Source: Bacteroidota bacterium (GTDB taxonomy: Bacteria > Bacteroidota > Bacteroidia > Flavobacteriales_E > Vicingaceae). From it: a stretch of 64,000 bases of DNA. The notes below the pieces were generated by a model. It searched no databases. It was not told the origin of the DNA and saw only the letters and a program-made list of their open reading frames with translations. This document shows positions 1-11,714 of this stretch, piece by piece (within the stretch, counting starts at the first letter, position 1; each line of letters begins with the position of its first letter). Location of the stretch: contig JABFGJ010000015.1 in the NCBI GenBank assembly GCA_013112545.1, positions 1 to 64,000 of the forward strand, read 5' to 3'. A program made the position numbers and the translations under genes.

Positions 1-187
1 CTTAACAAGCTTGCGTCTTACTAATACTTCCCCAACGTTACTCGGGGCGTATAAGGGACTTACACCCTTTGGATTAAATTCAATATTTAAAAGAACTTAT
101 TTATATTTACCATTCAAGGCACACACAAAACCTAAAAGTAAGCGGGCTGAAAGTGCTATATTTGAAAACACTACAATTAAAAAAACT
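1..187. other. Left edge, no gene recognised
   Basis: I see no credible gene in this stretch. A 60-codon open frame from position 11 has no recognisable domain and is probably chance. CCCAACGTTACTCGGGGCG near 31-50 vaguely resembles the start of a cassette like those further right, but its partner cannot be identified, so this is a guess. Confidence 0.4.
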
Positions 188-256
188 CCGTAACGGTTGA
201 CAAAGACTCGGGTTCCAAAGCCCGCCAGCTTTTAGCCAAACCGTTGGTAGCAAGCC
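188..256 (+). other. attC-like cassette junction a (degenerate)
   Basis: An imperfect hairpin is built from AACGGTT near 193 and AACCGTT near 240, with CGGGTTC near 209 in the place where sites b and c have GGTTCAG. It ends in GTTGGTAGCAAGCC at 243-256. That 14-mer matches the reverse complement of GGCCAGCTACCAAC at 695-708 in 12 of 14 positions, as expected for the two ends of one cassette. The structure is seen; the recombination role is inferred. Confidence 0.45.
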
Positions 257-694
257 TAAAAGAAGAGAAACCAAAAAACTTTGTTCGGAGAAAAAAACTA
301 AAAAATCAAGTTGAAAAAAATGAAATTAGAGAGAACTGAAATGTTGAAAATAGAATTAACGACAGACTAAAACTGTTGTGTTTTTCAAGGCGAAATCGTG
401 AAAAGTAAGGTTCCAGAAAAAATGAAAATTCTAAGAAAAACAAAACACGAATTTTTCAACTGTTGACTTTGGACTTTAGACAAAAAAGAAACAATGAAAA
501 TTTGCCTTAACTTTATCAACTCGGGTTTCAAAACTTCTTCTTTCGGCTAGACTTTTAGTTTAAGAAATGAAAGAAAAAAAGAATCGTCGTTCAAACATTG
601 AAAAACGAAATAACAAAGTTTGTGGGAAAAAATTAAACCAAGACAAAGAACCATAGAGAAACGAAATACTTTGAGAAACCAATGAAAAAAATAA
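257..694. other. Cassette body without a credible gene
   Basis: This is the interior of a putative 466-base cassette (243-708). It is A-rich on the + strand and every frame is interrupted; the only ATG frames are about 16 codons long. It may be a decayed cassette or encode an untranslated RNA, but I see no promoter or terminator that would support an RNA gene. Confidence 0.4.
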
Positions 695-846
695 GGCCAG
701 CTACCAACACAGGCGAATAGGCAATAGCGGGTTCAGTGTTTCAGTTGAAACCGCAGATTTCAGTAGAAAGCCCTGTCCTTCGGACAGACCATTTCGACGT
801 GAAATCCGCTACTGCCCATCGCCAAACCGTTACCTGCAAGCCTAAA
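695..846 (+). other. attC-like folded cassette junction b
   Basis: The arms at 712-733 and 803-823 are near-perfect reverse complements and enclose a loop of about 70 bases that begins with TTCAGTG and ends with GTGAAAT. Outside the stem lie GGCCAGCTACCAAC (695-708) and GTTACCTGCAAGCC (829-842). The left outer box pairs with the box at 243, and the right outer box pairs with the box at 9067-9080. The layout is like an attC site with long stem, large loop and outer core boxes, but the boxes do not fit the classic RYYYAAC/GTTRRRY consensus. Confidence 0.6.
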
Positions 847-940
847 GAACGAACAGAGCACAAATGACAGACATAATGAAACAGAAAATAAGGACAGAAA
901 AAGTGAACATTCAGACAGCCGACCCAAAAGCCAACGCTTC

Positions 941-1071
941 TGTATTTTTATTTTTTCCCACCGCACATTTTTTAAAAACAATTTTAGCCAGCCGCACAAA
1001 TGGCACATTTGGTTTTGCCCGACACACAAGCCAACGCTTCGCAAAACCAAAAGAGCCATTTTTTGCCAACG
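941..1071. repeat. Left flanking repeat block of the six-gene operon
   Basis: Two AT-rich boxes (941-956 and 967-985) recur inverted at 8968-8983 and 8934-8952. Then comes a hairpin with arms 999-1018 and 1041-1060 (18 of 20 paired; the internal mismatch is ACA against AGA), a loop containing CACAAGCCAACGC, and a trailing TGCCAACG. The same hairpin design, with different but compensating stem bases, lies at 8856-8928 beyond the operon. No promoter of the TAnnTTTG type is obvious between here and the first gene. Confidence 0.7.
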
Positions 1072-1109
1072 CTCGACAGAACCAATTGAATACCATAAAT
1101 AAGATGTAA

Positions 1110-2753
1110 ATGAAACTAATTCAAGACAACCCATATCGAATAGCGGGCATTCTTGCTAACTCTTCTGAAAAAGAACTTCAAAAGCAGAAAAGCAAAATCA
1201 CCAAATACGCCAGTATAGGTAAACAAGTAGATTCTGAATTTGACTTTTCCTTTTTTGGGAAGGTTGACCGTTCTGAAAATTCTATCAATAAAGCATTTTC
1301 AGGAATTGAACAGAATCAGGACAAGGTAGTCCATTCGTTGTTTTGGTTTCTTAAAGCCAATTCTTTTGACGAAACGGCTATCAATTATTTAATTAATGGT
1401 GACAAGGATAAAGCTATTGAAATTTGGGAGAAAGTAACAGAAGGCAAGGAAGTAACTTCAAAAAACTTTTCTTGCTTCAATAATATTGGAACACTCAAAT
1501 TGCTTGGCAACAGTAAAGAAGAATTAAAAGAAGGAATAGAAGCCAAAATCAAATTGATTGCGTCAACAAGTTTTGCTGACTTCGTCCACACAGTGGCAGA
1601 CCAGACTTACACAATTGATAATCTAAAGCAAGCAGAAAAATTTGTTGATGACATTTTGAAGCAGGTCAACGGAAAATATTCTAGTGCAGACACATTAAAT
1701 TTTTTCAGCAATTGCAACGGCACCACTCAAAAGTATTTATCAAAGAAATTTACAGAAGAACCACTTCATAAAATCGAAGCCCAAATTGAAACCAGCAAAA
1801 AGAATCGTAAAGTAAACAAAGGCAAAGCATATGAATTTGGTTTAAAGCTTTTCACAAATACCAAAGATGATTTATCGCTACTTAAATCTTTACTTGGAAC
1901 AAACGATTTAAAATACAAATCACTTGCTGACCAATTGGCAAACGAAATAATGCAATGTGGAATTGATTATTTTAATCAATGTCAAGAGAGCAACTCGAAT
2001 GAAAATTATCTAGAATCCTCTCAAAAGCTAACAAAGTTAGCAGATTCAATTGCTGTTGGAAAATTAGCAAAAGACAGAGCAAAAGACAGTCTTGCAACTC
2101 TTGAAGATATGAAAGACCGAGAGATAAATAAGGCTATTGCAATATTGAGTTCTATTAAAATGGCTTACGAAACGGCTTTAAGTGAAATTGATGCCCAAGT
2201 TGCTAAGATGAGAATGACAATGTCTTACAATCAAACAATCAATTATTCCAAAGTGGATAAAATGAAGGAAGACTGCTTAAATTGGAATAAAGTTGTTGAA
2301 GTTGTTAGTGACGGAATAAGTATAAATGACATTGAAATAATACAGCGTTGCTCAAATCAAAGCAAAGTTTCAGAATATAAAAACCTAGTAGATTTCTTGA
2401 TTGGCAAACTTGGCCCAATTCAAATAAACCAAATAAAACACATTTGCTATTGGAAAGACGTAAGAGCAGCTCAAGCAAAATCTACAGCAAAACAAGTTGG
2501 TAAATCTATCAGCACAGCAACGGATGGATGCTATATCGCAACTATGGCTTATGGAGATTATGAGCATCCTCAAGTATTGAAGCTAAGAAAATTCAGGGAT
2601 GAATTTTTACGCAAATCTTACTTGGGGCGTAAATTTATCAAATTTTACTATAAATATTCCCCTCTTTTAGTTGAAAAGCTAAAGGATAAACCGAAAACAA
2701 ACGACATAATTCGTACACTTCTAGACAAGTTAATCAAGATAATCAGAAAATAA
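1110..2753 (+). CDS. CFI-box-CTERM domain protein, first gene of the Hsp70/kinase-AAA operon
   Basis: This is a 547-residue soluble protein of unknown function. The N-terminus (NPYRIAGILANSSEKEL, from residue 7) and a long helical, lysine-rich body match no enzyme I know. From about residue 474, CYIATMAYG, then LRKFRD, FIKFYYKYSP and a basic end form the CFI-box C-terminal domain, a short Cys-led module found at the end of many unrelated bacterial proteins. The ATG is preceded by a stop in the same stretch (TAAATGAAA), and the gene overlaps the next by one base, which implies translational coupling. I infer a partner or adaptor for the downstream Hsp70 and kinase-AAA, with no direct evidence of function. 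Confidence 0.8.
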   Translation: MKLIQDNPYRIAGILANSSEKELQKQKSKITKYASIGKQVDSEFDFSFFGKVDRSENSINKAFSGIEQNQDKVVHSLFWFLKANSFDETAINYLINGDKDKAIEIWEKVTEGKEVTSKNFSCFNNIGTLKLLGNSKEELKEGIEAKIKLIASTSFADFVHTVADQTYTIDNLKQAEKFVDDILKQVNGKYSSADTLNFFSNCNGTTQKYLSKKFTEEPLHKIEAQIETSKKNRKVNKGKAYEFGLKLFTNTKDDLSLLKSLLGTNDLKYKSLADQLANEIMQCGIDYFNQCQESNSNENYLESSQKLTKLADSIAVGKLAKDRAKDSLATLEDMKDREINKAIAILSSIKMAYETALSEIDAQVAKMRMTMSYNQTINYSKVDKMKEDCLNWNKVVEVVSDGISINDIEIIQRCSNQSKVSEYKNLVDFLIGKLGPIQINQIKHICYWKDVRAAQAKSTAKQVGKSISTATDGCYIATMAYGDYEHPQVLKLRKFRDEFLRKSYLGRKFIKFYYKYSPLLVEKLKDKPKTNDIIRTLLDKLIKIIRK

Positions 2754-3694
2754 TGAAAAGAACAATACTAATAGTTGCCTTGATCGGTACAACAAATCTT
2801 TTTGCTCAAACGCAAAATGATAATCAGCTTGTTAATGAGATAACCGCAATTCAAAAAACAATTGAGAAGCAAAAGCAAGAAATTGACGCATTAACATCAA
2901 AAATCAGCAATCAGCAAACCACAATAAACCAGCAACGAAATTCTATAAACGATATAAGCAGTAAAGCCAGTATGCTTGAAAGCATCACTGACAGTTTAAG
3001 CGGACTAATTGAAACTAATCGTATTAATATTACTTCAATAGCAGATGATTTAGGAACGAAAATACAAGAAACAGGTCAGCAAGCCGAAACCAGAATTTCG
3101 GAACTTGGTGGTGATGTAGAGAAAAACAGACTTTATTGGATTATTGCTTCTTTAGTAACTCTTCTTCTCGGTGCATTGATGTATTTGTTCTTGGGTAAGC
3201 GAATAAAGTCAAGTCAAACTGACGTAGAAACGCAAATTAGGAATACCAAAAAATCATTGGAAGAAGAAAGTTTGAAGCTTGACAACAAACTTATTGAAGT
3301 CCTTGAAACACAAATGAAGGTTCAACAAGAAGAATCAAGAAACCAACCAATTGCGACAAACGAAAAAGCAGACCATTCACTTGCATTAAAAGTAGCTGAT
3401 GAAATCGTAAGAATGCAAAAGAACATTTCAAGGATGGATGCAGACATAAAAGGACTTAAACCTTTGGAGAAAGGAATTGAACGTATTCAAGCAAATTTCG
3501 CAGCCAATGGTTATGAAATGGTCAATTTGCTTAATAGCGAATATGACGAACGAATGAATATTGATGTTATCAACTTTGTTGAAGACGATACCTTGGAATC
3601 AGGCAAAAAACTTATTTCTAAAATTATAAAACCACAAATAAACTTTAACGGTATCTTGATTCAAAGAGCACAGGTTGAAGTTTCTCAAAATTAA
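2753..3694 (+). CDS. Single-pass membrane coiled-coil protein with cytoplasmic tail
   Basis: The 313-residue protein has a signal-peptide-like N-terminus (residues 1-19, ending in LFAQ), a periplasmic coiled coil rich in Q, K and I (about 25-120), one transmembrane helix (128-148), and a charged helical cytoplasmic tail. The last 60 residues end in KPQINFNGILIQRAQVEVS, which vaguely recalls the small beta domain that closes GrpE nucleotide-exchange factors. That likeness is my inference and needs a structure. The gene overlaps its upstream neighbour by one base and ends 11 bases before the Hsp70 gene, so it probably anchors the complex to the inner membrane. Confidence 0.75.
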   Translation: MKRTILIVALIGTTNLFAQTQNDNQLVNEITAIQKTIEKQKQEIDALTSKISNQQTTINQQRNSINDISSKASMLESITDSLSGLIETNRINITSIADDLGTKIQETGQQAETRISELGGDVEKNRLYWIIASLVTLLLGALMYLFLGKRIKSSQTDVETQIRNTKKSLEEESLKLDNKLIEVLETQMKVQQEESRNQPIATNEKADHSLALKVADEIVRMQKNISRMDADIKGLKPLEKGIERIQANFAANGYEMVNLLNSEYDERMNIDVINFVEDDTLESGKKLISKIIKPQINFNGILIQRAQVEVSQN

Positions 3695-3705
3695 ACTTTT
3701 ACAAA

Positions 3706-6231
3706 ATGGCAAGAACAAAAATTGACTACGGCATTGACTTGGGTACTACCAACTCTGCAATTTCACGAATGGAAAACGGTGAAGCAAGAATCATCAAATC
3801 TCTTGATAAACAAAAAGATACAACACCGTCTTGTATAGCCTTTAATCCCAAAGGCACCTTATTCGTTGGTGATAAAGCCTATGATAGTTACAGGTCAAAC
3901 AGTCTTAAAAGCCTATCACATCAAACACCATTAAACGCATACGTTGAGTTTAAGCGTACTATGGGGACTGATAAAAAATATAATAGTACATACGTGAATA
4001 AAGACTTTACTTCCGAAGAATTATCTTCCGAAGTTCTAAAAAGGCTCAAAGAATATGTTCAGGATGAGAATATTAACGCTGCTGTAGTTACTGTGCCTGC
4101 TGCTTTTAAGAATAATCAAATAGATGCGACAAGGCGTGCAGGTAAGTTGGCAGGTTTTGACCACGTTGAAGTTCTTCAAGAACCAGTTGCTGCATCAATG
4201 GCTTACGGTCTTGACAGTAAAAAGAAAGATGGGTTTTGGCTTGTATTTGATTTTGGTGGTGGGACTTTTGATGCTGCATTACTCAAAGTAGAAGACGGAA
4301 TAATGAAAGTAATTGACACCGAAGGTGATAATTACTTAGGTGGTAAAAATTTGGACTATGCAATTGTTGACCAAATAATAATTCCACATATTCAAGAAAG
4401 GTTTAACATTGATGATTTACTTTCAGATGAAGTTAAGAAGGAAGAATATCGTAGTGGTTTGAAGTTTTTTGCAGAAGAAATCAAAAACAACCTTTCTTTC
4501 AATCCATCACACAATATTTATGTTGACCCAGGAGAATGTGGAGTAGATGACGAAGGTGAAGAAATTGAAATCGACCTTACAGTATCTCAAGAGCAATTAA
4601 AAAGTGTTCTTGCTCCAATTTTTCAACAATCAATTGATTGTAGTTTAACACTCTTGAAAAGGAACAATCTTAAAGGTAGTTCTTTAGATTCTCTCATCTT
4701 GGTTGGTGGCCCGACACTATCACCAACTTTAAGAGAAATGTTAGAAAAGCAAATATGCAAGCCTGACACAAGTGTTGACCCAATGACAGTCGTTTCAAAG
4801 GGTGCTGCATTGTATGCTTCTACCGTTGAATTGTCTGAAGAAATCAAGGAACAAACAAGAGACAGAACCAAAATTCAACTTGAAATAGGTCACGAAGCAT
4901 CAACCGTAGAAACAGAAGAATTTGTAACACTCAGAATCCTTGAAGATAAAACTGAAGGAGAGATTCCAGAAAAGGTTTTTGCTGAAATCAAAAGGGGTGA
5001 TAATGCTTGGTCTAGTGGCAAAGTAGAGATAAACACAATAGGTGAAGTAATAGACGTTCAATTGAACGAAGGAAAAACCAATGTTTTTGGAGTTACCCTT
5101 TATGACGACAAAGGAAACCTGCTTGAAAGCGAGCCAAATTCATTTAGCGTTATTCAAGGTTCTAAAATTGGTAGTGCAACTTTACCATATAATATAGGTA
5201 TCGAGATTAAGCAAAAGACCACAGGAAAAATTGTTTTCACTACGGTCAAAGGATTAGAGAAAAACCAATCTTTACCAGCAACGGGAACTTTGAACGGACT
5301 TAAAACCCAAAAGCAAATACGCCCAGGAATGGATTCCGACTTCATCAAGATTCCAGTTTATCAAGGGGAACACGGTTCGGAAGGAACAAGAGCAATTTAT
5401 AATGAACACGTTTATGACATTATTATAAGTGGTACAGATTTACCCGCCCTATTACCTGAAAATTCGGATGTTGATTTGACCATTAACTTGGACAAATCAC
5501 AGCAAATGACTATTCAAGCATACTTCCCTTACTTAGACCATACTTCAGAAATTGAAGTGCCCACAGACACTGTTCAATCTGTTGAAACAAGTTGGTTATC
5601 AAATGAAATAAGAAAAGCAAAAGGTGCAGTTTCAGAACTAAAAAGAGATGGTGACCATTCTGATGATGCTAAGCTAAAAAAAGCAGAATCTGAGTTAGAC
5701 AAAATTGAAAAGTCATTTGAAAACAACAAGAATGATGTTGACGGTAAGCAAGAAGTATTAACCAATCTCCGAAAAACACTAAAAACTATTGACGAACTTA
5801 ACGAGACAACAGAGTGGCCAAAATTGGAAGCCGAATTAAAAGAAGAATATTACAGGCTCGAAAAAGCCAATAAAGAACTCGGTAATGAAAAGACAACGCA
5901 AGTTGTCAACCAAATCAAAAATCAATTGGAAGAAGTTATCAAGCTTAAAGATGTGAAGCTTGGTAATGTGCTTCTTGATGAAATAAACAGCTTTTTCATT
6001 CAATTGACATTCATTTATCAATTGATTGGTTTTATCCGTCAACATAATCAAAACTTTGGCTCATATAGATGGAGAGATGCAAATAAAGCAAGAACACTTT
6101 TAAATCAAGGATTGCAAAAAATAGGTGAAAGTCCTGATGTTGATGAATTGCATCCAATAGTCATTTCATTAATTGATTTATTGCCAGTAGAAGATAGACC
6201 AAGTGGTGATGATTCGGTCTTAGTCGGATAA
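3706..6231 (+). CDS. Hsp70 family protein (DnaK-like) with extended C-terminus
   Basis: The N-terminal half is a clear Hsp70/actin-fold ATPase: IDLGTTNSAISRM near residue 10 (phosphate 1), VTVPAAFKNNQIDATRRAG near 130, FDFGGGTFDAALLK near 180 (phosphate 2) and LVGGPTLSP near 335 (adenosine motif). At 841 residues it is some 200 longer than DnaK. The C-terminus carries beta-rich segments (about 390-625) and then a long charged helical region instead of a standard lid, with no EEVD-like end. No J-protein gene is in the operon, whereas the housekeeping grpE-dnaJ pair lies at 43,460-45,178. It is probably an ATP-driven client- or partner-remodelling factor of this module and not the general DnaK. 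Confidence 0.9.
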   Translation: MARTKIDYGIDLGTTNSAISRMENGEARIIKSLDKQKDTTPSCIAFNPKGTLFVGDKAYDSYRSNSLKSLSHQTPLNAYVEFKRTMGTDKKYNSTYVNKDFTSEELSSEVLKRLKEYVQDENINAAVVTVPAAFKNNQIDATRRAGKLAGFDHVEVLQEPVAASMAYGLDSKKKDGFWLVFDFGGGTFDAALLKVEDGIMKVIDTEGDNYLGGKNLDYAIVDQIIIPHIQERFNIDDLLSDEVKKEEYRSGLKFFAEEIKNNLSFNPSHNIYVDPGECGVDDEGEEIEIDLTVSQEQLKSVLAPIFQQSIDCSLTLLKRNNLKGSSLDSLILVGGPTLSPTLREMLEKQICKPDTSVDPMTVVSKGAALYASTVELSEEIKEQTRDRTKIQLEIGHEASTVETEEFVTLRILEDKTEGEIPEKVFAEIKRGDNAWSSGKVEINTIGEVIDVQLNEGKTNVFGVTLYDDKGNLLESEPNSFSVIQGSKIGSATLPYNIGIEIKQKTTGKIVFTTVKGLEKNQSLPATGTLNGLKTQKQIRPGMDSDFIKIPVYQGEHGSEGTRAIYNEHVYDIIISGTDLPALLPENSDVDLTINLDKSQQMTIQAYFPYLDHTSEIEVPTDTVQSVETSWLSNEIRKAKGAVSELKRDGDHSDDAKLKKAESELDKIEKSFENNKNDVDGKQEVLTNLRKTLKTIDELNETTEWPKLEAELKEEYYRLEKANKELGNEKTTQVVNQIKNQLEEVIKLKDVKLGNVLLDEINSFFIQLTFIYQLIGFIRQHNQNFGSYRWRDANKARTLLNQGLQKIGESPDVDELHPIVISLIDLLPVEDRPSGDDSVLVG

Positions 6232-6235
6232 AATT

Positions 6236-8020
6236 ATGAATAATCAAAATCACATATTAACCAAAGGTCAAGTCATTGATGACAAGTACACCGTAACTTT
6301 CTTTTTGAAAAAAGGGAGTTATGCAGAGTCATATCGAGTAAAAGACAAAGAAAAGACGACAAAGCTTTTGAAAATTTTTTCTTATTCGAAATTGCATAGA
6401 ACACAGTTTGACCAAAGTGGAGATGTGCTTGAAATTGAGATTCTGAAAAAGTTAAAGCACCCGAATATTGTCAAACTCATTGACAGCGGTAATCTTTTGT
6501 TAGAAAATCAAAAATACGCTTATGCCATTTTAGACTTTATAAGTGGTGAAACCCTTGCAGATAAAATGAAAAGGGAACAAACCTTTAATCCTTATGAAGC
6601 GAAAGACATCATTCTTGGGGTGCTTAACGGACTTAATTATTTACATAATCAACAAAACCCAATTATCCATAACGACATTACCAATTTGAATGTGATGTTG
6701 GATTTGTCGGGACAGGTATCCGTTCCCAAAATAATTGATTTTGGCTATGCAAGATTTTTGAGTCAGTCACATAAAGATTTTCAAAAAGAAGGTTTAAATC
6801 CTTTCTATTCAGCCAACGAAACATTTAACAAAGTCTTTTCGGTTCAAAGTGACATTTTCTCAGTAGGTGCCTTGTATTATCATCTATTGGTTGGCCTCCC
6901 ACCTTGGTTTGTGGAGTTGTCCAAATTCAAATCGGAATCAGTGAAATTGGAAGATGCAATTTTGAAAGAGCGAGAAAAGCCTTTACAGGTTGTTAGTTCA
7001 GATTCCAAGATTGAAGCCAATACTTTTAACATAATTGCAAAAGCGTTACAACCTGATGCAGAGAATAGATTCAAGAACTTGAAAGAATTTATTCAGGCTG
7101 TTAATGGTGAAATTGTAGTTGACAATCCTGTGCTTGAAAAATCGGCACAATCAACCCAAACTTTGAAGTCAGTTAAAAAAGGCGAAGGGTTCAAATCAAT
7201 TGCAGGAATGCAAGAACTTAAAGACACTATAAAATTAGATGTTATTGACGCTTTGAACGAAAAAGAGAAGTATGCTGAATATGGGCTTACAATACCAAAC
7301 GGAATGCTTTTATATGGCCCCCCAGGTTGCGGGAAAACATTCTTTGCAGAAAAAATGGCAGAAGAAATTGGATTCAATTTCTATCAAATTAAGCCTTCTG
7401 ACATTCAGAGTAAATGGGTGAATGCATCACAAGAGAATATCAAAAATCTATTTGACGAAGCTAGAAAAAACGCACCAAGTATAATTTTCATTGACGAATT
7501 AGATGCTTTAGTTCCAAACCGTGACAATTCGAGTGTCAACCATATGAACACTAGTGCTGTGAACGAATTTTTAGCACAAATGAATAACAGCGGAGATGAC
7601 GGAGTATTTATAATTGGAGCGACAAATCGACCAAATTCAATAGACCCAGCAATTTTACGAGCAGGAAGATTAGACAAGCACGTTTATTTGCCACCACCAG
7701 ACTTTGAAGCAAGGGAATTGATGTTCAAGCTCTATTTAGAGAAAAGACCCACCGAAATAGGTTTAGACTATGCTGACCTAGCAAAAGCAACTGAAAACTA
7801 CGTTTCAAGCGACATCAAATTTTTGTGTGATGAAGCTTCAAGAATAGCATTACGTTCCAAATCAAGAATCACCAAAGAAATTCTGATAGAAACAATAAAA
7901 ACGAACAAACCTTCAATCACTCTTTCAGAACTTAACAGTTACATAGAAATCAGAGCAAAAATGGAAGGTCAACAATCCAATACTAACGAACGACCAAGAA
8001 TTGGTTTTAAAAACAATTAA
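6236..8020 (+). CDS. Ser/Thr protein kinase fused to AAA+ ATPase
   Basis: This is one 594-residue protein with two catalytic domains. Residues 15-290 are a Hanks-type kinase: glycine loop KKGSYAES (25-32), ATP lysine in LLKIF (K46), catalytic loop HNDITNLN (145-152; Asp147 and Asn152 kept, but HND not HRD and Thr where the usual Lys stands), DFG at 168-170 and SDIFSVG at 205. Residues 320-560 are a classical AAA+ module of the FtsH/proteasome type: Walker A GPPGCGKT (361-368), Walker B IIFIDE (416-421), sensor GATN (461) and arginine fingers in ILRAGRLD (473-480). There is no protease domain. The gene starts four bases after the Hsp70 stop. I infer that phosphorylation and remodelling are coupled; the substrates are unknown. 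Confidence 0.92.
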   Translation: MNNQNHILTKGQVIDDKYTVTFFLKKGSYAESYRVKDKEKTTKLLKIFSYSKLHRTQFDQSGDVLEIEILKKLKHPNIVKLIDSGNLLLENQKYAYAILDFISGETLADKMKREQTFNPYEAKDIILGVLNGLNYLHNQQNPIIHNDITNLNVMLDLSGQVSVPKIIDFGYARFLSQSHKDFQKEGLNPFYSANETFNKVFSVQSDIFSVGALYYHLLVGLPPWFVELSKFKSESVKLEDAILKEREKPLQVVSSDSKIEANTFNIIAKALQPDAENRFKNLKEFIQAVNGEIVVDNPVLEKSAQSTQTLKSVKKGEGFKSIAGMQELKDTIKLDVIDALNEKEKYAEYGLTIPNGMLLYGPPGCGKTFFAEKMAEEIGFNFYQIKPSDIQSKWVNASQENIKNLFDEARKNAPSIIFIDELDALVPNRDNSSVNHMNTSAVNEFLAQMNNSGDDGVFIIGATNRPNSIDPAILRAGRLDKHVYLPPPDFEARELMFKLYLEKRPTEIGLDYADLAKATENYVSSDIKFLCDEASRIALRSKSRITKEILIETIKTNKPSITLSELNSYIEIRAKMEGQQSNTNERPRIGFKNN

Positions 8021-8023
8021 AAA

Positions 8024-8563
8024 ATGGAACAGATAAGATTTAACAAACTTCTTTTAAAGACCGCATTTTCTTGTATGGCTTGTGATGGAGACATTGACAA
8101 AAGAGAAGTCATCTTGATTAAAACAATGCATCAACAAAAGAAAATTTTTGGTGAAATAGATATTAACCAAGAACTTGACAATTTGCTTTTGGAAATCAAC
8201 CGTGATGGTCACAAATTCCTGCGAAGTTATTTCGATGAATTAACTTCAACAGAACTATCAGAGCAAGATGAATTAAAACTTATTGAAGTTGCAATTGATA
8301 CTATCAAAGCAGATGATAAGGTTGAATATAGTGAAGTAAAATTCTTTAAAGTCATAAGGAGCAAACTGAAAATAGAAAATGAACCAATTATAGCGATACA
8401 TCCTGATTTTGAATATTATTTAGAGCAGGATATAATAAGCGAATCTTATTTGGCAAGACTACAAGACGACTTTTTTGATACCCAGACTTTGCCTGAATTT
8501 GAGTTAATCAGTTCGATTGATGATGACACTTTAAAAAATCTTACAGAAAACAAAGATGAATAA
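8024..8563 (+). CDS. TerB-like (tellurite-resistance B family) protein
   Basis: The protein has 179 residues and is acidic and all-helical. Two similar halves carry the TerB-type acidic signature: FSCMACDGDIDKREV near residue 15 and IDTIKADDKVEYSEVKFF near 88. TerB-fold proteins bind metal through acidic clusters and occur in stress and phage-response gene sets with ATPases, kinases and chaperones. The gene begins three bases after the kinase-AAA stop and overlaps the next gene by eight bases, so it is part of one transcript. I am fairly sure of the fold and not of the function. Confidence 0.75.
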   Translation: MEQIRFNKLLLKTAFSCMACDGDIDKREVILIKTMHQQKKIFGEIDINQELDNLLLEINRDGHKFLRSYFDELTSTELSEQDELKLIEVAIDTIKADDKVEYSEVKFFKVIRSKLKIENEPIIAIHPDFEYYLEQDIISESYLARLQDDFFDTQTLPEFELISSIDDDTLKNLTENKDE

Positions 8564-8855
8564 CGCAATCAAGATAGTTTTAGCGATTCTGTTATTTCTC
8601 TGTTTAGCTGATATGCCTTACGGATTTTATCAGTTTGTAAGGTTTGCAGGACTAATTGGCTTTGCCGTTTTAGCATACCAAGCAAACCAACAAGGCAGAC
8701 AGACAGAAATGATTATTTACGGTGGACTTGCTTTGTTATTCCAACCGTTTTTCAAAATAGCACTTGGCAGACAAATGTGGAACATAGTTGACGTAGTTGT
8801 AGGAATAGGACTTTTAATATCAATATTTATGAAACCAAAGGAAAGCCAACCCTAA
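8556..8855 (+). CDS. Small membrane protein, DUF6804-like
   Basis: The protein has 99 residues and about four hydrophobic helices (residues 5-18, 25-43, 53-70 and 75-92). The segment MPYGFYQFVRFAG at 20-32 is typical of the DUF6804 family of small membrane proteins, as far as I recognise it. The start overlaps the TerB-like gene by eight bases, so it closes the operon. With the coiled-coil protein it is the second membrane component of the module. The function is unknown. Confidence 0.7.
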   Translation: MNNAIKIVLAILLFLCLADMPYGFYQFVRFAGLIGFAVLAYQANQQGRQTEMIIYGGLALLFQPFFKIALGRQMWNIVDVVVGIGLLISIFMKPKESQP

Positions 8856-8983
8856 AAGCAAGCACATTTGCAATTCGCACAAGCCAACGCACAGACCAAA
8901 AATTGCAAAAGAGCTTGCTTTGCCAACGTAGACAAAATTGTTTTTAAAAAATTTCCCAACGCTTCAAAAAAAATAAAAATACA
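8856..8983. repeat. Right flanking repeat block of the six-gene operon
   Basis: It begins one base after the operon's last gene. A hairpin with arms 8856-8875 and 8901-8920 (18 of 20 paired, with the same ACA/AGA internal mismatch as the left copy), a loop with CACAAGCCAACGC and a trailing TGCCAACG repeat the left block in the same orientation. Inverted copies of the left AT-rich boxes follow at 8934-8952 (19 of 19) and 8968-8983 (16 of 16). Confidence 0.7.
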
Positions 8984-9066
8984 CCAACACACAGCCCGAC
9001 AAAGACAGCAGACAATGACACAAAAACTCAACACTGATAAAACATACAACGACACGGAAGAAAGAA

Positions 9067-9206
9067 GGCCAGCAGGTAACAGCACCTATAAGAAATTGGC
9101 GGTTCAGTGGTTAAATGAAGTTCAGTTTTTCAATCAAAGTTTTGTGCAGTTTGACAGTTTTGTGCTTCGAAATCGCCAACTTCTTATAGCTGCAAAACGT
9201 CAAACT
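9067..9206 (+). other. attC-like folded cassette junction c, left part
   Basis: The outer box GGCCAGCAGGTAAC (9067-9080) pairs with GTTACCTGCAAGCC at 829-842 (12 of 14) and so closes the 8.25-kb cassette. The stem arms 9082-9104 and 9171-9193 pair in about 20 of 23 positions. As in site b, the loop begins TTCAGTGG and ends TTCGAAATC. The site is interrupted after 9206 by the insertion sequence and resumes at 10,893. Confidence 0.6.
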
Positions 9207-10892
9207 GTCTAAAAACCTCTCTACTTTTTCAACATTAAATTTTTGATAAACCTTTTAGTTCTTTCAGCTTTAAAAGAGAGGTTTAAGTACCTTTAGGTAT
9301 GAAATTCATCAAAGGAAAAGACCGCAATCAAACTGAGTTCTTTTGTTTAGATCAAACCATTGAGCAAGACAATGAAGTTCGTTTAATTGATTTGTTTGTC
9401 GGGAGTTTAACTCTTAACGACTATGGGTTTAAAACAGAGTTTATAGAAAATGGTAGGCCTGCATATCATCCATCTGATTTGCTGCGATTGTTCATTTACG
9501 GTTATTTGAATCGCATACGTTCATCACGGCATTTGGAAAGGGAATGTAAACGAAACTTGGAAGTTATGTGGCTGATGTGTGGACTTATTCCCGATCATAA
9601 CACAATTGCTAATTTTAGAAAGAACAATTCCAAGTCCATTCGCAAAGTGTTTCGTGCAACGGTTCAATTGGCCAAACATTTTGATTTAATTGGTGGTAAA
9701 CTTATTGCCGGTGACAGTACTAAAATGCGAGCCCAAAATTCAAAGAAAAACAATTTTAACGAGAGAAAAATTGAACGACATCTCGCTTATATTGATGCAA
9801 AGGTAGAAGAGTATTCAGCTATTTTAGCAGCAGAAGATGGCGATAATTATAAAAAACAAGAAGCTCAAAACAAGATACAAAAACATCTCCATCAGCGAGC
9901 TAAATATGAGCAATTGCAAGAGGAGTTGAATCAGAGCGGAGAAGTACAAATTTCCACCTCTGATCCCGATAGCCGACAGCTCATTACACGAAATACAATT
10001 ACAGAGGTAGCATACAACATTCAAACCACTGTGGATGCCAAACACAATATTCCTATTGATTTTAAAGTCACTAATGAAAATGATTCTAAAGCTATGGGGC
10101 GTATGGTTCGCAGAGCTAAAACAATTTTAAAGAAATCAGATTTTACAGCACTTTATGATAAAGGGTATCACACAGGAACAGAGTTTGACTATGCGCACAA
10201 ACAGGGCGTAGAAGTTATTGTAGCATTTCCGGGAGTTGCTTCGCATGCTCCCGATATGACTTTTGATGTAGAGCATTTCACATACGACAAAACACTTGAT
10301 GAATATACTTGCCCTGCCGGAGAAAAACTTACTAGCAATGGTAGTTGGTATAATAAAAAAAGTGGCAAGACGATAAATCGTGTTAAACACTACAAAACAA
10401 AGGCTTGTAAAAGCTGTGATTTTTTTGAACGCTGCACAAAAAACAAAGCAGGAAGACTTATTGAGCGTTCTGAACACATGGATTTAATAGAAGCTAATAA
10501 GAAAAGATTAAACGAGCAAATGGAGCTTTACAGAAAAAGGCAAGCTATTGTAGAGCATCCTTATGGTGTGATTAAACGACAGTGGGATTTCTATTACATC
10601 ATGACTAAAAAAACAATGAAGCATGCTGTAGCAGATGTAGGAATGATCTTTACGGCCTACAACCTCAGAAGGATTTTTAACCTTGTAAGTCAAAATGAGC
10701 TAAAAGCCCACTTCAAGCATATTGGGCGTTGTTTTTATACCTTTAAAAGGCAATTTGCAGTAATTGACGCTCTTTTAAGTTCCAAAACTGGTAATTACAG
10801 ACTGATTTTACAAATAAGCTAAATTGCTTAAAAAGTGCTATTTTTAACCAAAACTAAAGTTTTACTAAAAATTTAGAAAGGGTTTTTAGACG
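9207..10892 (+). mobile_element. IS1182-family insertion sequence
   Basis: It is a 1686-base element with terminal inverted repeats: GTCTAAAAACC with further pyrimidine-rich matches at the left end, and the reverse complement at 10,881-10,891 on the right. It is flanked by a four-base direct duplication AACT (9203-9206 and 10,893-10,896). It holds one transposase gene. Removing it and one AACT restores a continuous junction in which AACGTCA and TGACGTT face each other, so the target was itself palindromic. Confidence 0.85.
9299..10822 (+). CDS. IS1182-family transposase
   Basis: The protein has 507 residues, full length for the family. The N-terminal domain (YHPSDLLRLFIYGYLNRIRSSR at about 56-77, broken here only for description, and the PDHNTIANFRK region near 98) is typical of IS1182/IS1380-like DDE transposases. 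The acidic residues are D139 in IAGDSTKMRA, an Asp in ALYDKGYHTG and a Glu in VEHPYGVIKRQWDF. A CxxC...CxxC segment (TCPAGEK ... CKSCDFFERC) is also present, as usual in the family. The frame is open and the element's ends are intact, so it may still be active. Confidence 0.93.
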   Translation: MKFIKGKDRNQTEFFCLDQTIEQDNEVRLIDLFVGSLTLNDYGFKTEFIENGRPAYHPSDLLRLFIYGYLNRIRSSRHLERECKRNLEVMWLMCGLIPDHNTIANFRKNNSKSIRKVFRATVQLAKHFDLIGGKLIAGDSTKMRAQNSKKNNFNERKIERHLAYIDAKVEEYSAILAAEDGDNYKKQEAQNKIQKHLHQRAKYEQLQEELNQSGEVQISTSDPDSRQLITRNTITEVAYNIQTTVDAKHNIPIDFKVTNENDSKAMGRMVRRAKTILKKSDFTALYDKGYHTGTEFDYAHKQGVEVIVAFPGVASHAPDMTFDVEHFTYDKTLDEYTCPAGEKLTSNGSWYNKKSGKTINRVKHYKTKACKSCDFFERCTKNKAGRLIERSEHMDLIEANKKRLNEQMELYRKRQAIVEHPYGVIKRQWDFYYIMTKKTMKHAVADVGMIFTAYNLRRIFNLVSQNELKAHFKHIGRCFYTFKRQFAVIDALLSSKTGNYRLILQIS

Positions 10893-10911
10893 AACTGACG
10901 TTAGCAAGCAT
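10893..10911 (+). other. attC-like cassette junction c, right part
   Basis: This is the continuation of site c beyond the insertion sequence: AACT duplication, GACG, then GTTAGCAAGC (10,900-10,909), which corresponds to GTTACCTGCAAGC and GTTGGTAGCAAGC at the other junctions. It marks the start of the next cassette. A partner CTTGCTAA lies at 11,361-11,368. Confidence 0.5.
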
Positions 10912-10919
10912 TAAGACTA

Positions 10920-11354
10920 ATGAAAAAAATAATCTCAATTTTTACTTTAATAATTCTCTGTTCTATAAGCTATGGACAAGACCAAAAGGAAGAGTTCACT
11001 ATTGTTGAGAATATGCCAATCTTCAAAGGCTGCGAGAAAAAGAAAACTCAATCAAAAAGAGACCAATGTACAAATGTTGAGCTTTATAAGTTCATTGTAA
11101 AAAATGTTCGCTACCCAAAGGATTTATTTGGACAAGGTCTAAGCGGAACGACATATGTAACTTTTAGGGTTGACACAACAGGGAAGGTTATAGATGAAAG
11201 AATAGAAGGAAAATTTCCGGGAGAATCTGGATATAAATTTGATGAAGAAGCTTTAAAAGTTGTAAGACAGATACCTACAATGACGCCAGGAATGACAAAA
11301 GGAGAGCCACAAGCAGTTCAATACACAATTCCTGTAAGGTTTAGTGAAAAATAA
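10920..11354 (+). CDS. Secreted TonB C-terminal domain protein
   Basis: The protein has 144 residues. It has a signal peptide (about 1-19, ending SYGQ), then a TonB C-terminal-like domain: FKGC, YKFIVKNVRYPKDL, GTTYVTFRVDTTGKVIDERI and a final PVRFSEK. The usual membrane anchor and proline-rich spacer of TonB are missing, so it is a stand-alone periplasmic TonB-like domain, common in Bacteroidota and of unclear role. Its ATG lies 10 bases after the cassette start box, and the gene fills the small cassette 10,900-11,370. The energy-transducer function is therefore not certain. Confidence 0.8.
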   Translation: MKKIISIFTLIILCSISYGQDQKEEFTIVENMPIFKGCEKKKTQSKRDQCTNVELYKFIVKNVRYPKDLFGQGLSGTTYVTFRVDTTGKVIDERIEGKFPGESGYKFDEEALKVVRQIPTMTPGMTKGEPQAVQYTIPVRFSEK

Positions 11355-11360
11355 AAACGA

Positions 11361-11447
11361 CTTGCTAATCGAGTAGATGGCTCCGCCCCTAAATAGGGAC
11401 GGAGTTCGCCTCTCACACCATCCCGCCTTTTGCGTGACGGTTCGCAA
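11361..11447 (-). mobile_element. Possible 3' end remnant of a group II (IIC-like) intron in a cassette junction
   Basis: Read on the - strand, GAACCGTC...GATGGTGTGAGAGG (11,411-11,444) folds like an intron domain V. A second hairpin with CTCCG/CGGAG arms then ends in CTACTCGAT at 11,369, in the manner of a domain VI and 3' splice site. The exon side reads TAGCAAG, the reverse of the cassette-end box CTTGCTAA. IIC-attC introns are known to insert in attC sites against the direction of the cassette gene, which fits the orientation here. No maturase frame remains. The call rests on short motifs only. Confidence 0.42.
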
Positions 11448-11714
11448 CCCACCTTGTCAATCGCACTTTACAGCAATTGAAACTATTTTATACTTTCTGA
11501 AAAGGCTACAGTTTTCTTGAGAGCCAACCATCATAGCTAAAAGCGAGATTGGTTAATCAAGTCTATGCTTCAATCTTTGACAAAATACAAACTCTGCACC
11601 AATTTCTCCAAGTGGACTTCCCCAACATCATTAAATTAGATTTTTAATCAAACCAATCTGGCTAACAAAAAAGTAATTTACAATTGATTCTCAATTATTT
11701 GCTTAATCTAGGCC

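Follow-up and report, generated by a model that had tools for sequence, protein, structure and literature searches.

A mobile Hsp70-AAA+ operon with a membrane-anchored GrpE-like protein in Bacteroidota, a candidate defence system

Why should a bacterium with its own dnaK, grpE and dnaJ carry a further Hsp70 gene in a separate operon on mobile DNA? The question is raised by six genes at positions 1110-8855 of a 64,000-nucleotide stretch, called the window here, which comprises positions 1-64,000 of the forward strand of contig JABFGJ010000015.1 from a Bacteroidota bacterium (Vicingaceae; GCA_013112545.1). On balance, we lean towards the answer that these genes make up a complete Hsp70-AAA+ machine for protein remodelling, tethered to the membrane and carried by mobile DNA, and that its most probable use is defence against invaders. 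The claim at the level of the machine, a dedicated Hsp70 together with an AAA+ unfoldase, is well supported. The predicted role in defence is probable, not proven.

The window starts at the end of its contig (C15), in a genome of 3.27 Mb and 24 contigs. The general dnaK of the host lies on contig C4, apart from the operon. The general grpE-dnaJ pair, which the initial annotation of this DNA already placed outside the operon, lies within the window, 35 kb downstream on contig C15 (43.5-44.2 kb). The six co-directional open reading frames are as follows.

1110..2753, + strand: CFI-box protein, J-like co-chaperone candidate, 547 residues (CFI_box_CTERM 2.3e-23)
2753..3694, + strand: predicted membrane-anchored GrpE-like protein, 313 residues (AlphaFold2, Foldseek, hhalign)
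3706..6231, + strand: Hsp70, 841 residues (PF00012 5e-67; alignment with the host's own DnaK)
6236..8020, + strand: (pseudo)kinase fused to a classical AAA+ ATPase, 594 residues (Pkinase 1e-36, AAA 2e-40; motif table of 24 homologues)
8024..8563, + strand: TerB-like protein, 179 residues (PF05099 in 9/9 family members, best 1.1e-6)
8556..8855, + strand: small membrane protein DUF6804, optional accessory, 99 residues (PF20619 1.3e-36)

The frames almost abut; their junctions are, in gene order, one shared base, 11 nt, 4 nt, 3 nt and an 8-nt overlap. The initial annotation had described such a six-gene + strand operon with tiny gaps or overlaps, and its coordinates were exact for every frame. 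Its calls of CFI-box, Hsp70, kinase plus AAA and DUF6804 were matched by profiles. The TerB call also holds: the window protein alone is below the cut-off (E 0.09), all nine aligned members match the family, and RefSeq names the Haliscomenobacter homologue TerB. The presence of this TerB-like gene is no evidence of tellurite resistance.

Parts of a dedicated Hsp70 machine

The second gene is the one that changes the picture most. It had been described as encoding a one-pass membrane coiled-coil protein; the membrane coiled coil stands, and a GrpE-like head was overlooked. The protein consists of an N-terminal signal-like segment, a coiled coil, a transmembrane segment at about 127-149, a cytoplasmic coiled coil and a head at 205-313 with a conserved motif, GYExVxxLGKxYxEGMxV...KIIKPQVNYNGKMIQxAQIEVS. 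An AlphaFold2 model (9 sequences, pLDDT 81) combines long helices with two shorter ones and a domain of six strands, which is the plan of GrpE. GrpE chains take every one of the first 12 places among the Foldseek matches in the PDB (E 7e-6 to 3e-3, probability 1.00), and the hhalign probability against genomic GrpE was 72%, rising to 94% and 95% on adding divergent members, with reversed controls at 0.1-0.8%. The VIA structure aligner did not single out GrpE (Z 7.6-8.9, a score equalled by BAG and by unrelated helical chains); since it ranks such bundles with GrpE, the assignment is based on Foldseek and on profile comparison. Among the matches listed for the family members scanned there is none to PF01025 at E<=1, and we therefore call the protein GrpE-like, a divergent relative and not a canonical GrpE. 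Pfam and PDB sequence searches with the GrpE-like head and with the J-like domain described below returned coiled-coil noise alone. In two contigs of a viral collection the same slot is filled by a soluble head of 128-129 residues, which implies that the head is the kept part. Taken together, model and profiles make a membrane-anchored GrpE-like nucleotide-exchange factor, with predicted exchange activity, a well-supported element of the machine.

The evidence for a J-like co-chaperone is weaker. The CFI-box protein appears to have a degenerate J-like domain (about residues 1-80), followed by a TPR-like or helical middle and the C-terminal CFI-box. Its N terminus, NPYRIxGLxANxSxKE, resembles J-domain helices I-II, and the AlphaFold2 model places four helices (8-12, 20-35, 56-65, 69-76) in J-like order. 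As divergent members were added, hhalign to J domains rose from 27 to 55 and then 71% (21 members), over only 23-26 columns covering helices I-II; reversed controls gave at most 0.5% (0.1% for the 71% run). VIA returned TPR-like and helical-repeat chains for this model, not J domains. The C terminus varies. The CFI-box is present in the window and in the related loci L113 and L252; a hydrophobic segment takes its place in L034, L114, L035, L044, L115, L116 and L033, whereas L036 and L170 end in a charged tail that resembles a coiled coil. The swap for a hydrophobic segment in orthologues suggests that the CFI-box may be a membrane-association element. This would be a first functional hint for CFI-box domains, which occupy the same slot as the C-terminal hydrophobic anchor of orthologues.

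The Hsp70 has a complete nucleotide-binding domain (NBD) with DLGTTNS, GGTFD and VGGPT motifs by alignment to the host's own DnaK, an insertion of about 115 residues at the linker between the NBD and the beta part of the substrate-binding domain (SBD-beta), an SBD-beta-like region, a lid and a conserved C-terminal domain. The AAA+ half of the fourth protein is classical by its Walker A, Walker B, sensor 1 and Arg fingers; both Walker motifs are found in 24/24 aligned homologues and the Arg fingers in nearly all of them. With predicted GrpE-like and J-like co-chaperones, what was a loose list of domains becomes an Hsp70 machine of its own, working together with an AAA+ unfoldase.

The kinase half behaves differently. 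Of 14 system proteins, no more than 3 (window, L033 and L115) retain its HRD Asp, the position being Glu, Gly, Ser or Asn in the others; L173 and the tested Shewanella ATPase have no kinase domain, or none that can be recognised. In genomes reached by Acidobacteriota and Planctomycetota searches, separate kinase genes with HRDIKPxN and DFG lie upstream of the operon (L307, L310) or after the Hsp70 gene (L312), and a ClpB-like two-ring ATPase (AAA_2, AAA_lid_9, ClpB_D2-small) occupies the AAA+ slot of L307 and L308. With the HRD Asp lost in most proteins and the AAA+ motifs retained, kinase activity is not what these systems have in common, and phosphorylation as a common mechanism, proposed earlier, is not supported. 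The separate kinase genes and the ClpB-like slot suggest that the Bacteroidota fusion is probably secondary, and that the shared activity is probably that of Hsp70 plus an AAA+ unfoldase. The ClpB-like ATPase of L307 and L308 points to unfoldase or disaggregase work with Hsp70.

Stand-alone homologues of the kinase-AAA+ protein exist in Bacteroidales (Prevotella, Alistipes, Muribaculaceae; L037-L046, L049) without Hsp70 partners, often beside a conserved gene of 125-138 residues; they possibly have a separate chromosomal function. In L033 a second Hsp70 gene without SBD or C-terminal part and with a degenerate phosphate motif (CEGTFD) lies within the operon (8463-9983). L050/L311 was first taken for an Hsp70 and was ruled out, as the C-terminal part alone matches.

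Recurrence and neighbours of the operon

By the standard of the initial annotation, homologues never clustered in other genomes, or a fixed core locus, would have refuted the system; neither condition refutes it. The order CFI, coiled-coil GrpE-like, Hsp70, kinase-AAA+, TerB is shared by eleven loci, the window and ten others (L033, L034, L035, L036, L044, L113, L114, L115, L170, L252). L115 has no TerB gene, and some of the ten have a lipoprotein gene, DUF6804 or another small gene inserted; strong DUF6804 homologues occur in 3 other system loci and a weaker one in L170. In one genome (G215, L116) the genes are rearranged and the GrpE-like gene is on another contig. Between loci the proteins share as little as 19% identity (the minimum, for CFI) and as much as 80% (the maximum, for Hsp70), and a gene order that recurs in ten loci with proteins so strongly diverged is more than chance. 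The distance matrices of five families are congruent (Mantel r 0.65-0.94, p<=0.0025), which fits genes that have been inherited as one module. The six genes form a real conserved unit. In L035, two unannotated genes stand between Hsp70 and kinase-AAA+ (8246-9717), one of 206 residues without a Pfam match and one for a 284-residue membrane protein.

The unit is rare. A full-length kinase-AAA+ protein was found in 5 of 296 Bacteroidota genomes, our own counted (below full length the search is uninformative, FtsH-type ATPases matching in all 296), and the GrpE-like gene in 6 of 395 genomes; a scan of GTDB contigs recovered further Bacteroidota loci. A profile of the Hsp70 C-terminal part (A5) had no match in eight non-Bacteroidota genomes; a wider profile (A6) did give matches. 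No phage record matched the Hsp70 C-terminal part.

On proteobacterial plasmids the same Hsp70 is accompanied by a short GrpE-like head gene (about 115-130 residues). The pair lies within Tn7-like transposons on plasmids of Shewanella xiamenensis and Aeromonas caviae (the Aeromonas Hsp70 gene is annotated as two pieces) and between Zorya and Gabija on a Polaromonas plasmid; further plasmid copies are those of Vibrio, Aminobacter and Pseudomonas. The family profile recognises the Shewanella/Aeromonas, Polaromonas and Vibrio heads; for Aminobacter and Pseudomonas the assignment is by position and eye only. On plasmid pHALHY02 of Haliscomenobacter hydrossis a five-gene set adjoins BREX. Other loci neighbour Gabija and a DUF1016 nuclease (L036), type I restriction-modification and ThsB, as in Thoeris (L114), type IIG restriction-modification (L113), a PDC-S60 NACHT protein (L115), DarTG (L311) and PDC-S09 (L033). 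Rare, patchy and found on plasmids, Tn7-like elements and, in the window, an integron-like cassette, the operon is not a fixed core locus. A clustered, horizontally mobile, membrane-linked Hsp70/AAA+ machine, often in defence islands, is the part of the initial annotation's reading that finds support.

Upstream of the system, the Haliscomenobacter plasmid also carries genes for a SIR2 protein, a hypothetical protein and two WD40 proteins (L252, 732-7709). In a Tn7-like element (L300, 12935-20250) the cargo after the AAA+ gene includes a peptidoglycan-binding-domain protein, an RDD protein and several unknowns, possibly extra components of the system in Proteobacteria.

Defence, stress tolerance and a possible mechanism

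Several points weigh against a defence machine of the kind favoured here. The defence neighbours were chosen by the analyst, without a genome-wide background rate for comparison, and L035 and L044 adjoin no recognisable defence genes. The operon's six genes include no obvious toxic effector, nuclease or abortive-infection gene. As for the machine, the HPD motif is missing from the N-terminal domain of all listed CFI-family members, for which reason we use the term J-like only; the J-like alignment spans just 26 columns, Foldseek with the whole CFI-box protein model returned no J domains, and the AlphaFold2 models were built from 9-10 sequences.

What else, then, might the operon do? The main rival to defence, which we regard as possible but less probable, is a mobile system for stress tolerance. 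All of its recognised core parts are proteostasis parts, a ClpB-like ATPase takes the AAA+ position in L307 and L308, genes for mercury resistance are found near the copy on the Aeromonas plasmid, and a mobile proteostasis island is already known in the transmissible locus of stress tolerance (tLST; PMC8290217). Such a system does not readily account for the repeated adjacency to BREX, Zorya, Gabija, Thoeris-like genes, DarTG and restriction-modification rather than to stress genes, nor for a low and patchy frequency. Unlikely, in our estimation, is the kinase-centred scheme of the initial annotation, in which the kinase senses and phosphorylates targets while Hsp70 and AAA+ act as executors. 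The window kinase does retain K46, D147 and D168, the separate kinases of L307, L310 and L312 have their motifs, and many defence kinases exist, as the PADLOC kinase matches illustrate; a catalytic Asp confined to 3 of 14 system proteins and a domain missing or beyond recognition in L173 and the Shewanella ATPase speak against it. Least credible of all is a housekeeping or envelope-biogenesis operon of the lineage. Membrane anchoring would suit quality control of envelope proteins, and the copies in L035 and L044 are surrounded by ordinary genes of the chromosome, but presence in about 1-2% of sampled Bacteroidota genomes, and on plasmids, Tn7-like elements and an integron-like cassette, already contradicts it.

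Returning to the membrane-tethered defence machine, we can compare it with known systems. The bichaperone DnaK-DnaJ-GrpE plus ClpB shares with it an Hsp70, a GrpE-like exchange factor, a J-like protein and an AAA+ ring, ClpB-like in L307/L308. The operon differs in a GrpE-like protein that spans the membrane, a J-like domain without HPD, an Hsp70 with an insertion between NBD and SBD and a kinase-fused AAA+ of the classical (CDC48/FtsH-like) type; it is also mobile, rare and coexists with the host's own dnaK, grpE and dnaJ. GTPase-centred (GAP1-N2) operons, predicted to act in conflict (eLife 2020 survey, PMC7159879), likewise combine HSP70, GrpE and DnaJ (DnaJ-FNIII), and include a second Hsp70 without the peptide-binding part, as in L033. 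The operon has neither tubulin nor FNIII protein; it has AAA+ and (pseudo)kinase instead, and its GrpE-like protein is membrane-anchored. Domain searches found no GTPase among its six genes, which places it outside the GAP1-N2 systems. CoCoNuTs use an Hsp70-like CnuD, and type III has it in a defence operon, often with TerY-P and in many cases with a kinase gene (PMC11090510). In contrast, the operon lacks McrBC GTPase, HEPN nuclease, vWA and phosphatase, and the catalytic motifs of its Hsp70 are intact. To sense phage, bNACHT25 requires host DnaJ (PMC12169576). The tLST, also called the locus of heat resistance, is the nearest mobile proteostasis island and carries an AAA+ disaggregase; the operon has no ClpG, Hsp20, FtsH or other gene of that island among its six genes, and is Hsp70-centred and near defence genes. 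As compared here, PMC7159879, PMC11090510 and PMC12169576 contain no system with this composition or with a membrane-spanning GrpE.

PADLOC matched no full system. Its best matches for the AAA+ and kinase halves are the ietAS ATPase (IetA) and the PD-T4-6 / MAD6 kinases, which are partial and single-domain, with the partner genes absent from the operon; the other genes gave nothing convincing. A search of the open-access literature found no description of the operon and no CFI-box paper, which is weak as evidence of absence. The operon is a variant of chaperone-based accessory systems.

How might such a machine work? From what was computed (components, GrpE-like fold, membrane topology signals, intact Hsp70 and AAA+ motifs, gene order, mobility and defence neighbours) we infer client hand-over and membrane sensing, with phage or plasmid protein complexes as clients. 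A client would first be captured by the J-like, TPR-like protein, which the CFI-box or a C-terminal hydrophobic segment would keep at the membrane, and would then pass to the operon's own Hsp70. Nucleotide exchange on this Hsp70 would be driven by the GrpE-like head of the coiled-coil protein that spans the membrane, and the Hsp70 cycle would thereby be coupled to the envelope, perhaps to what the periplasmic coiled coil feels during injection. Hsp70 would hand the client to the ring-forming AAA+ ATPase for threading and unfolding. The kinase domain, degenerate in most relatives, may be mainly a docking or regulatory part, and TerB and DUF6804 may tune membrane association. A bolder reading, possible but less likely than not, is that the operon is a mobile immune chaperone machine whose Hsp70 would have its nucleotide exchange controlled from across the membrane. 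An envelope event, phage injection for example, would be sensed by the GrpE-like head on its membrane-spanning coiled coil, and Hsp70 and AAA+ would then be set to work on taking apart invader protein complexes at the inner membrane.

The anti-phage systems known so far mostly kill via nucleases, NAD depletion or membrane damage. If the proposal is correct, a horizontally moving Hsp70-AAA+ machine with its own exchange factor would confer immunity, or transferable stress protection, by protein remodelling, and a GrpE-like protein that spans the membrane would represent a novel means of controlling an Hsp70. The recurring operon offers a clean experimental handle.

The integron-like cassette and its surroundings

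The operon is the cargo of one integron-like cassette, as the mobile, cassette-like setting seen by the initial annotation had indicated. The features around it are these.

243..708, + strand: neighbouring integron-like cassette, complementary ends GTTGGTAGC...GCTACCAAC, inverted-repeat arms 243-257/694-708
690..845, - strand: attC-like hairpin, left border of the operon cassette (folding z -4.9 for the bottom strand, -4.1 for the top strand)
829..9198, + strand: 8.4-kb integron-like cassette with the whole operon, start GTTACCTGC (829), complementary end GCAGGTAAC (9072-9080), then the interrupted right site
9199..10899, + strand: insertion sequence at the cut point of the right attC-like site, DDE transposase 9299-10822 (PF05598/PF13751), terminal inverted repeats

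An attC-like site, complementary ends and a folded bottom strand are the marks of an integron cassette, and all are found here, with the operon between attC-like sites. The start motif GTTACCTGC occurs 3 times in 3.27 Mb, always on the same strand and always in this array; the neighbouring cassette has a different pair of complementary ends. For IntI, the genome gave only tyrosine recombinases below the cut-off, and the contig ends inside the array. With 8 kb and six genes, the cassette is unusually large for an integron.

The array at the contig end (window 1-11660) has at least 3 attC-like sites with cassette-specific complementary ends, and its third cassette encodes a TonB_C protein. The insertion sequence (DDE_Tnp_1_6) sits at the attC-like recombination point (AAAAC|IS|GTTAGC), as attC-targeting elements do.

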